64,000 bases of DNA. It comes from Clostridia bacterium. Its GTDB lineage: Bacteria > Bacillota > Clostridia > Oscillospirales > Acutalibacteraceae. Both the position numbers and the translations under genes were made by a program. Under the pieces are notes generated by a model. It ran no database searches. It saw only the letters and a list, made by a program, of their open reading frames with translations, and had not been told where the DNA came from. The stretch is taken from the NCBI GenBank assembly GCA_017466365.1, contig JAFTUG010000013.1, positions 29,775 to 93,774 of the forward strand. The letters run 5' to 3'. Numbering within the stretch: position 1 is the first letter of the stretch; every line of letters starts with the position of its first letter. Below, in pieces: positions 14,252 through 16,064 of the stretch.

Positions 14252-14290
14252 AACTCGGAATGCAATGTTGATATGCACTCCGAGTTTTTT
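14252..14290. terminator. Terminator downstream of the sigma-LRR gene
   Basis: AACTCGGA (14252-14259) pairs with TCCGAGTT (14279-14286), with an inner TGCA/TGCA pairing. T6 follows on the plus strand and TCTTTT on the minus strand. It ends 2 bp from the sigma-LRR stop codon. Confidence 0.8.
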
Positions 14291-16064
14291 ATATTAAACT
14301 AAAATTAATTCCGTTAGCAACAGCAAAATCATGTGCTGCAGAACCTTCTTTACATCTTATCGTCAAAGAGCCGCAGCCGTCAAATGCATCATCTGAAATT
14401 GATGTTACACTTGCCGGAATTGTAATTGTCTGCAAAGAAGAGCATTGTGCAAATGCTTCATCGTTGATTGTTATTGTTCCGTTTGGAACGGATATGTCAG
14501 TAAGGCTTGTACATCCGTAGAATGCGCCTATTCCTATCTGTTCAAGTGATGACGGAAGAGATACCGAAGTCAGCGAAGTGCAATCGGCAAAAGCTTCCTG
14601 ACCTATTTGTGTTACTGATGACGGCAGAGAAACAGATTTAATATCCGTGTTTCCGGCGAATGCTCCTGAACCTATTGCGGTTATGCTGTTTGAACCGATG
14701 CTTGAAGGAATTGAAACATTTGAGTCGCTGCCTGTATATTCCGTGATTACTCCGCCGGAAGAACTGTAGTTGTTTTCGGGAGAGGTAGTCGGCGGATTTG
14801 TAGTAGTTGGTTTTGTTGTGGTGATTTTTTGGGTTGTAGTTTCCTTAATGGTAGTAGACGGTGCGGTTGTGGTAGTATGTTTTGTTGTTGTGGTTGATGC
14901 AAGTGTTGTTGTCGGTTTCGTTGCAGTAGTAGATGCTTTTGCGGTTGTTTGTTTTTGTGTTGCGGTTTTTGAAGCTTGAATTGTGGAATTTGCAGCTGTT
15001 GTCTGTGTTGTGTTCTGCGATGTGCTCGGTGATGTTGGTTCGGTTGTTGAAATGAAGGTTGATGAAACCAACGATGTAAATTCCGCTGTGGTTAAAATTT
15101 CGGTAATAATTTCCGGAACAGTACAGCTTTCTTCCGTTTTATATGTTGTTGAATGGATTGTGGTGCTTTCTGCAATCTTATTATCGATATGTTTTTTTAC
15201 GGCAACAGTTCCGCCTACTGCAACCGAGCCTGCAACTGCTATTGCCGTTGCTTTTACAGCTATTGATGCAGCTGCTGTTGCGGCAACGGATGATGCGGCG
15301 CTTGTCCCTGATGTTGCTGATACTGCGATTGCGGCTGTTGTACCTGCGGCAGAAGCTGCACCTGCTGTTGATGCTGCGCCCGAAACTGAAGCGATTATGC
15401 TTTCAGAAATTGCGGCGGGAACAACGATGTTTTCTGCCTGATATGACAAAAGGGAAAGAATAACGGGAATTGCACCGATACCAAAGAGTGTCGGATCTTT
15501 TTTGCGAAGTTTATCAAATTCTTTTTCAATCTGCTTTCTGCCGTTATGCAATCTGCTTTTTACGGTTCCCAAAGGTATGTTCAATATTTCGGAGATTTCA
15601 TTCAGGTTTTTATCTTCAAAATGAAAAAGTATTATGCAAGTGCGTACTTCCGGTGAAAGTAAGTCGAGAATATCCGATATGCTTTTTCTCAATTCCTCAC
15701 GTTCCATGTATTCCTGCGGAACGGGCTGTTTCCATTCTTCGGAGTGCTCATCGGCTTTATTTTTGAAGAAAATAATCGGAGCATGAATTCTCTGTTCCTT
15801 TTTTATGTAGTTTTTACATTCGTTTTCAACGATTGTTTTTATCCAGCTTTCAAAGCTCTCGGGATTTTTTAGCTCCGGCAGCTTTTGATATGCTTTGATG
15901 TAAGAGTTCTGCAAAACATCTTCGATATCTTCGCGGCTTTTCAGCAGAAAGCTTGCAGTTTGATATGCAGTTTTTGATGTGAGCTGATAAAGTTTTTCAA
16001 AAGCGGAGTTATCGCCGCTTATCGCATCGTTTATCAGCTTTGAAAAGTCAACCGTTTCTTTCAT
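14289..16064 (-). CDS. ECF-type sigma factor fused to a membrane/linker region and LRR_5 repeats
   Basis: 591 aa. Residues ~5-95 are sigma-70 region 2 (YQTASFLLKSREDIEDVLQN, SFESWIKTIVENECKNY) and ~125-190 are region 4 (LSPEVRTCIILFHFEDKNLN, IPLGTVKSRLHNGRKQIEK). After this the chain continues: a hydrophobic stretch (FGIGAIPVILSLL), an Ala/Ser/Thr/Val-rich region with a probable membrane helix (AIAVAGSVAVGGTVAV, ~280-296), a Thr/Lys-rich spacer of ~120 residues and five BspA-type LRR_5 repeats (AFAGNTDIKSVSLPSSVTQI and similar). Ordinary ECF sigma factors are 160-200 aa, so ~400 residues are extra. I infer a membrane-tethered sigma factor with an extracellular sensing/binding part. Own promoter at 16094-16122. 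Confidence 0.85.
   Translation of the reverse strand: MKETVDFSKLINDAISGDNSAFEKLYQLTSKTAYQTASFLLKSREDIEDVLQNSYIKAYQKLPELKNPESFESWIKTIVENECKNYIKKEQRIHAPIIFFKNKADEHSEEWKQPVPQEYMEREELRKSISDILDLLSPEVRTCIILFHFEDKNLNEISEILNIPLGTVKSRLHNGRKQIEKEFDKLRKKDPTLFGIGAIPVILSLLSYQAENIVVPAAISESIIASVSGAASTAGAASAAGTTAAIAVSATSGTSAASSVAATAAASIAVKATAIAVAGSVAVGGTVAVKKHIDNKIAESTTIHSTTYKTEESCTVPEIITEILTTAEFTSLVSSTFISTTEPTSPSTSQNTTQTTAANSTIQASKTATQKQTTAKASTTATKPTTTLASTTTTKHTTTTAPSTTIKETTTQKITTTKPTTTNPPTTSPENNYSSSGGVITEYTGSDSNVSIPSSIGSNSITAIGSGAFAGNTDIKSVSLPSSVTQIGQEAFADCTSLTSVSLPSSLEQIGIGAFYGCTSLTDISVPNGTITINDEAFAQCSSLQTITIPASVTSISDDAFDGCGSLTIRCKEGSAAHDFAVANGINFSLI

Follow-up and report, generated by a model that had tools for sequence, protein, structure and literature searches.

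ECF sigma factors commonly rely on a separate membrane anti-sigma factor to sense the outside of the cell (PMC8999054). Members of the class that carry membrane-anchored extensions of their own are already known, with ECF52 and IutY as examples described in that review. In ECF52 (SCO4117 of Streptomyces coelicolor), ECF48, and ECF53, a single chain joins the sigma factor to a C-terminal membrane portion and an outer region, and proteolytic activation has been proposed for them (PMC8999054). IutY of Pseudomonas putida (ECF243) is freed through proteolysis by Prc and RseP (PMC8999054), and ECF262 (type member SFB89493.1, Ruminococcus albus) is entered in Table 2 of the same review with a regulatory extension and the mechanism "others" (PMC8999054). 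In the SigI-RsgI systems of Clostridium thermocellum, outer sensor domains sense substrates of the regulated surface enzymes, and ClpXP recognizes XAA in the cut RsgI helix (PMC12203970).

One open reading frame joins a sigma factor to a probable LRR_5 ectodomain

The window, by which we mean the whole stretch of 64,000 nucleotides analyzed here, comes from a genome that is 79.6% complete and lies in 20 contigs. It contains a fused gene with the following parts:

14289..16064, minus strand: fused gene of 591 aa, ECF sigma factor, Ala-rich linker, putative membrane helix, Thr-rich spacer, and LRR_5 ectodomain
15504..16064, minus strand: sigma part, residues 1-187, regions 2 and 4 (Pfam, NCBIfam sigma70-ECF, SigW match)
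15435..15491, minus strand: hydrophobic segment H1, residues 192-210 (TLFGIGAIPVILSLLSYQA), dG 1.5 in the window copy
15198..15254, minus strand: predicted membrane helix H2, residues 271-289, its first residue the conserved lysine K271; a borderline score in the window copy and a clear one among the wider relatives
14769..15188, minus strand: Thr/Lys-rich spacer, residues 293-432, read from the sequence; fast-evolving
14292..14768, minus strand: LRR_5 ectodomain, residues 433-591 (Pfam LRR_5); constrained

An earlier note on this DNA had described an ECF-type sigma factor with regions 2 and 4 intact, in a chain that runs on through Ala-rich, hydrophobic, and Thr-rich parts to LRR_5 repeats. 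This description is borne out. The gene is a single ATG-to-stop open frame of 591 aa, in which Pfam matches Sigma70_r2 at residues 26-92 (1.6e-11), Sigma70_r4_2 at 128-179 (8e-12), and LRR_5 at 451-567 (3.6e-33). The N-terminal part scores 92.0 bits with NCBIfam sigma70-ECF, against a cut-off of 42.9, and the LRR_5 match reaches 114.6 bits against a Pfam cut-off of 27.7. A PDB sequence search returns SigW (5wuq) across residues 8-183 (2.9e-16) and several LRR proteins, including 4fs7 (1.3e-51). The sigma part has the composition of an ECF factor, with regions 2 and 4 present and no Pfam match to regions 1.1 or 3 anywhere in the 591-aa chain. Pfam matches no domain between residues 184 and 450 and recognizes no anti-sigma domain between region 4 and the LRR; the Ala-rich stretch, residues 188-292, contains no cysteine.

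Selection differs along the chain. The sigma part has a pN/pS of 0.18-0.28 across five ortholog pairs, the linker with the helix 0.34-0.47, the Thr-rich spacer 0.47-0.71, and the LRR 0.23-0.32, ratios that are rough because synonymous sites are near saturation (pS 0.58-0.85). The corresponding values in a sixth, close pair (L048/L049) are 0.13, 0.23, 0.74, and 0.18. The sigma part is the most constrained segment in each pair compared; the sigma and LRR ends both look constrained, and the spacer little. Judging from this constraint, from paralogues, and from colinear loci in the genus, the fusion of a sigma factor to LRR_5 repeats is real and not an accident.

A family of fused sigma factors with exchanged ectodomains

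The source genome encodes four further proteins built from a sigma factor, an Ala-rich stretch, a hydrophobic segment, and an outer part. Two of these paralogues (L002, L003) continue into a Thr-rich part and a small C-terminal domain; the other two (L004, L005) have an outer part of ~430 aa without a Pfam domain above cut-off. The 430-aa ectodomain type (six proteins, E 1.6e-17 to 1.1e-30) and the LRR_5 type are both also found in stand-alone proteins with signal-peptide-like starts, and LRR_5 stretches are abundant across the genome.

Within the genus, 43 of 45 genomes give some match to the fused protein, partly to plain sigma factors, and in at least 29 of the 45 a match scores 99 bits or higher and extends beyond query residue 270. 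Grouped by ectodomain, 55 fused genus proteins fall into sets of 21, 17 (LRR_5), 5, 5, and 5, with two single-member types, one of which is a broken LRR relative. Fourteen genus loci, the window included, are colinear along the whole fused chain, five of them minus one LRR repeat. Beyond the genus, a profile of the five paralogues gives matches at 1e-40 in at least 22 of 200 family genomes and at least 18 of 295 order genomes (the window's own counted in each), and a phylum search at 1e-35 gives them in at least 6 of 398 genomes, again including the window's; these shares are lower bounds because in many genomes the scoring covered a fraction of the candidates. Among the other five phylum matches, one is fused and four are sigma factors of 197-210 aa. 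The ectodomains of 40 wider relatives carry LRR_5 in eight cases, and WG repeats, DUF3298, and a copper-amine-oxidase-N domain in one each.

The focal LRR clade, which takes up 16 rows, has full support in a tree built from 93 sigma parts. Mapped across that tree, the LRR label must change seven times, and well-supported branches force six of these changes; L043 and L053 carry the label although their own frames stop ahead of the LRR. The alignment rows of L044, L048, L049, and L054 begin a few residues before any ATG. From such comparisons we conclude that ectodomains are swapped around a conserved core of sigma factor, lysine, and helix.

The earlier note had raised the possibility that sigma and LRR parts might prove to be consistently separate genes in homologues. 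One chain holding both is kept in 14 of 16 focal-clade genes, and the other two, read as they stand, are frames broken between sigma and LRR (L043/L092 in genome G023 and L053 in G037). Two stretches, L092 203-1875 and L103 7053-8483, are broken relatives of the focal gene in which the LRR half resumes in another frame, through pseudogene formation or assembly error. Sigma and LRR also share a frame at 18 loci from named records, all of them metagenome genomes; several of these loci lie on contigs already represented among the genus loci. The titles of 14 of the 18 name goat, sheep, water deer, water buffalo, or reindeer material. Ruminococcus albus KH2T6 carries three fused sigma-helix-ectodomain genes (669, 561, and 690 aa).

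The family points to a single membrane crossing

We scored membrane helices and signal peptides by home-made rules that use a Hessa-type hydrophobicity scale. By this measure H2 of the window copy comes to 2.27 kcal/mol, joint fourth-worst of the 55 genus proteins, and H1 scores better there (1.5). Across the family the order is reversed: H2 lies at or below 2 kcal/mol in 49 of the 55 genus fused proteins and in 39 of the 40 wider relatives (mean 0.36 in the 40, several of which are incomplete, the sequence stretch ending inside them), whereas H1 does so in just 16 of 55 and 4 of 40. H1 outscores H2 in 10 of the 55, the window protein among them. The lysine ahead of H2 is invariant in all 40 wider relatives from the family and order, none of which has a membrane-type segment inside its ectodomain, and an AA dipeptide occurs in the helix region of 45 of the 55 fused proteins.

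A membrane helix, which the earlier note had made decisive for its claim, is thus found family-wide and is borderline in the window copy; by the home-made rule the chain carries such a helix as ECF52, ECF48, and ECF53 do. The likeliest topology is a single crossing with the C-terminus outside, a placement drawn from the family and not from the window protein alone. It is favored because H2 is membrane-like in 39 of 40 wider relatives, H1 in 4 of 40, and ectodomain segments in none, and because the LRR_5 and 430-aa ectodomain types recur in proteins with signal-peptide-like starts. We take H1 to be a peripheral or amphipathic element. The proposal that this is a sigma factor with its own extracellular part, in one protein, therefore holds for the fused chain and the family-wide helix, and its outside placement is probable from the family.

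A conserved surface-protein gene accompanies the focal clade

Two large genes diverge from the fused gene:

16286..19867, plus strand: divergent protein of 1193 aa with a RicinB lectin domain and LRR_5, signal-peptide-like start
19984..23358, plus strand: conserved partner of 1124 aa, LRR_5/Big_3, signal-peptide-like start; relatives near 12 other focal-clade sigma genes

Both had been linked to the sigma gene as giant LRR_5 surface proteins; conservation upholds the link for the second, 19984..23358, which has counterparts at 12 of the 15 other focal-clade loci, or 13 of 16 with the window. Its relatives match at E 0.0 to 2e-123, with best segments 34-64% identical, against 1e-31 for the next LRR protein. 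In eleven of the 12 the alignment covers 1000-1121 of the 1124 residues; the remaining one, at L091, aligns over 608 residues to the point where the sequence stretch ends and lies several genes from its sigma gene. Among the 16 loci examined, no partner relative is in view at L089, L092 (a short contig), and L093. In 10 focal-clade loci the partner gene is the next one downstream, on the strand of the sigma gene; in the window, 16286..19867 intervenes. A candidate origin of the sigma protein's LRR as a copy of the partner's was rejected, the partner matching at 4.6e-15 and the genome's nearest LRR at 1.5e-25.

The same association appears when all 17 LRR_5-class sigma genes are considered: the next gene encodes LRR_5 and lies downstream on the same strand in 10, it is divergent in two (the window and G013), and no LRR_5 gene adjoins the sigma gene at L040, L042, L044, L076, and L079. 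Using longest-frame gene calls, we compared the 48 fused sigma genes that have a neighbor in the sequence at hand with 399 other genes. A same-strand gene follows within 120 nt downstream in 36 of 48 and 186 of 399, respectively; that gene has a signal-peptide-like start in 32 of 48 versus 50 of 399 and encodes LRR_5 in 25 of 48 versus 11 of 399. The Fisher values (2e-15 for the signal-peptide-like neighbor, 2e-19 for the LRR_5 neighbor) overstate the enrichment because the loci are relatives and not independent. No anti-sigma gene was seen among the neighbors of the window's sigma gene.

Several further observations concern these neighborhoods. A gene at 12065..14023 (minus strand), 265 nt after the sigma gene, encodes 652 aa with a signal-peptide-like start and sub-threshold GH20b/NAGLU_N matches; by eye the protein resembles a pectate-lyase-type beta-helix. 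Many LRR_5 surface proteins, including 16286..19867, 19984..23358, and those at other loci, share one of a small set of similar, short C-terminal tails (WWQWIIRILLLGFLWY; GFFxRIIAFFK; FYKxSFQLS), which may serve as an anchoring signal. L069, L077, L106, and L107 each have a pair of fused sigma genes arranged back to back, with ECF-like elements between them, and seven of these eight genes have their own LRR_5 gene next downstream. A conserved small protein of ~75-100 aa (RVNLDGxHSLDI...IYAEKFDxPCNYLxxAIKK) is encoded directly before the sigma gene at nine of ten small-ectodomain loci examined (L031 12890-13192, minus strand; L086, L083, L085, L080, L104, L077, L101, and L075) and may be a cytoplasmic partner. 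Mutually related, secreted-looking proteins without a Pfam domain adjoin or lie near class I/II sigma genes at L089 (226-1248, minus strand), L091 (9388-10380, plus strand), and L096 (5359-6636, minus strand), the last of which also matches the 430-aa ectodomain of L004/L005.

Promoter-like elements around the sigma genes

Two elements lie between the fused gene and its divergent neighbor:

16094..16122, minus strand: TTGATA-N17-TATATT, a sigmaA-like promoter for the fused gene, identified by eye
16165..16193, plus strand: GTGAAC-TTTTT...TTGTCTA, an element resembling ECF promoters that faces the divergent LRR_5 genes, found by pattern match

The aligned class-I upstream regions have the sigmaA-like promoter in common, its GTTATA core being conserved in all six, and five of the six have an element GTGAACTTTTT...TTGTCT that stands outside the sigmaA-like promoter and reads away from the sigma gene. 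In the window it lies 93 nt ahead of 16286..19867 and is the one match of a window scan, where 0.00 were expected for the stricter pattern and 0.03 for the looser. In the window's genome, the looser pattern and its control match three times each. The strict pattern yields seven sites in 6 of 45 genomes versus three control matches, and those six are exactly the genomes with a class-I sigma relative (63-100% identical), a co-occurrence that is partly circular because five of the seven sites adjoin the sigma gene and were used to draw the pattern. Three other class-I loci had no part in drawing the pattern: the element is missing from two of them and present in the third as a close variant that departs at two positions; G013's own sigma locus is without the strict element. 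A wider regulon read from the element was rejected, with two strict sites outside sigma loci in the 45 genomes versus three control matches.

Other classes show related arrangements. Among 52 upstream regions, nine, including the five class-I ones, carry an outward-pointing GxAAC-T-tract-GTC element, with 0.2 expected from shuffles. The 430-aa class has a conserved CGTC-containing element immediately before the sigma gene. Where LRR loci are of the operon type, a comparable element is oriented away from the partner gene, in some with no gene seen in front of it. With the patterns used, the LRR_5 class has no promoter-like match toward the sigma gene except one in L050. The class-II form of the element is not more frequent than its control (11 sites versus 12). 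Three of those 11 sites, two in G010 and one in G013 (L149, L150, L157), have the form GTGAACC...GTATCT; the genes that follow them are a lipoprotein-like gene in each of G010 and G013 and, in G010, one for a small membrane protein. The sole candidate evidence for a regulon is thus a promoter-like element that is missing at some orthologous loci.

Proposed mechanism and alternatives

We propose that the fused protein is a tethered ECF sigma factor that is freed by intramembrane proteolysis after an extracellular event, as a one-chain analogue of SigI-RsgI, and we give this reading a probability of roughly 0.55. Its observed part comprises the fused chain, its conservation, the family-wide membrane-type helix, the ectodomain swapping, and the conserved partner gene; we infer the orientation, silence while tethered, proteolytic release, ligand, and regulon. 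The ECF sigma part would be held at the inner membrane face by its own single helix, with the Thr-rich spacer spanning the wall and the LRR_5 domain outside, and while so tethered would have no access to RNA polymerase or to its promoters. The LRR_5 domain would respond to an extracellular event, either a ligand or binding of the partner LRR_5/Big_3 protein, the chain would thereby be exposed to a first cut, and the membrane protease RseP would then cut within the Ala/Gly/Val helix. The genome encodes an RseP-type M50 protease (1e-60), as do 14 of 14 control genomes of that search. Freed sigma factor would transcribe surface- and secreted-protein genes, the divergent LRR_5 genes among them. 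It might be short-lived because the helix contains an AA dipeptide and ClpXP recognizes XAA in cut RsgI, in which case the response would be a pulse; by that analogy, a freed chain whose end is the Ala-rich helix could be turned over by ClpXP, which would limit any active form. The weak H2 of the window protein, its better-scoring H1, and the absence of the promoter-like element at some loci count against this reading, as do the elements that point away from the partner gene at operon-type LRR loci and the existence in the genome of an LRR closer to the sigma protein's own than the partner's.

An account that we consider rather unlikely, and still weigh seriously, is that the sigma part is active while tethered, the extracellular event altering its conformation, clustering, or partner binding so that a membrane-bound holoenzyme forms without any cut. 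The lack of a Pfam-recognizable anti-sigma domain between region 4 and the LRR would suit such a holoenzyme, as would likely targets that are neighboring genes and promoter-like sites that adjoin some of the sigma genes. Cut membrane helices are often rich in Ala and Gly, however, and the helix of this family is Ala/Gly-rich in the same way. IutY, the sole experimentally characterized factor of this type named in the review, also uses intramembrane proteolysis (PMC8999054).

The other accounts differ on where the chain lies or on whether it signals at all. If H1 and H2 both crossed the membrane, or neither did, the C-terminal half would be an internal, cytoplasmic regulatory domain. The scores of the 10 genus proteins with H1 ahead of H2, the window protein among them (1.5 for H1 versus 2.27 for H2), lean this way, but H1 is membrane-like in 4 of 40 wider relatives against 39 of 40 for H2, and the LRR_5 and 430-aa ectodomains otherwise belong to proteins with signal-peptide-like starts. 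Thr-rich spacers, moreover, are usual outside the cell, and we regard a cytoplasmic C-terminal half as improbable. Slightly more improbable still is a protein that is mainly a surface LRR_5 adhesin, its sigma half serving as a cytoplasmic anchor or being constitutively active with no signaling through the helix. LRR_5 stretches are plentiful in this genome and the sigma gene seems to be under a sigmaA-type promoter, both in line with this account; the sigma part, however, is under the strongest constraint in each pair and is retained while ectodomains swap. A chance fusion through assembly error or a missed stop is scarcely credible: the incomplete genome in contigs and the broken frame in two relatives could be cited for it, but the same architecture recurs in 14 aligned genus loci, 18 named-record loci, and 8 of 40 wider relatives.

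A broader view, which we offer tentatively and hold to be possible without favoring it, is that this Clostridia sigma family comprises one-chain transmembrane devices with a swappable outer domain and a large surface-protein neighbor, often of the same repeat type. In its LRR_5 branch, the ectodomain and the partner would recognize a common target or one another, and the cell would measure binding by the surface protein, or its amount, and adjust expression without a separate anti-sigma factor. Sensor, membrane anchor, and transcription factor would then reside in one chain, in many paralogues with differing outer domains, beside the surface proteins of gut bacteria. If this is true, the cell exterior may be wired straight to gene expression, the ectodomains may hint at the signal sensed and the neighbors at the genes controlled, and the signals for gut surface proteins would become directly testable. 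Ruminococcus albus KH2T6, a named genome record with fused genes, offers a starting point for study.

Comparison with known systems

The window protein shares with ECF52, ECF48, and ECF53 a sigma part, a membrane portion, and an outer region in a single chain. Those actinobacterial factors are described with a zinc-finger anti-sigma domain (PMC8999054), whereas the window protein gives no Pfam match to one and has no cysteine in residues 188-292; where ECF52 has a proline-rich region and a carbohydrate-binding domain (PMC8999054), the window protein has a Thr-rich spacer and LRR_5. IutY is similar in that a sigma factor is fused to a membrane-bound regulatory extension. The review describes the extension of IutY as the anti-sigma factor belonging to a cell-surface system for iron; the window protein has no Pfam match to such a domain. 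BspA-type LRR_5 surface proteins have the same ectodomain and are secreted without a sigma part, unlike the window protein. ECF262 may be this fused sigma family; none of the three fused genes of R. albus KH2T6 is LRR_5-like by eye. In the open-access literature searched, we found no description of the LRR_5 form, of the conserved partner surface protein, or of ectodomain swapping on a lysine-helix core. SigI-RsgI differs in being two proteins, with a SigI-binding N-terminal domain and an autocleaving periplasmic domain in RsgI, whereas the window protein is one frame with no Pfam sign of either. What the two systems would share is sigma control by a single-helix membrane protein with a wall-crossing region and an outer sensor domain that differs between paralogues (PMC12203970).
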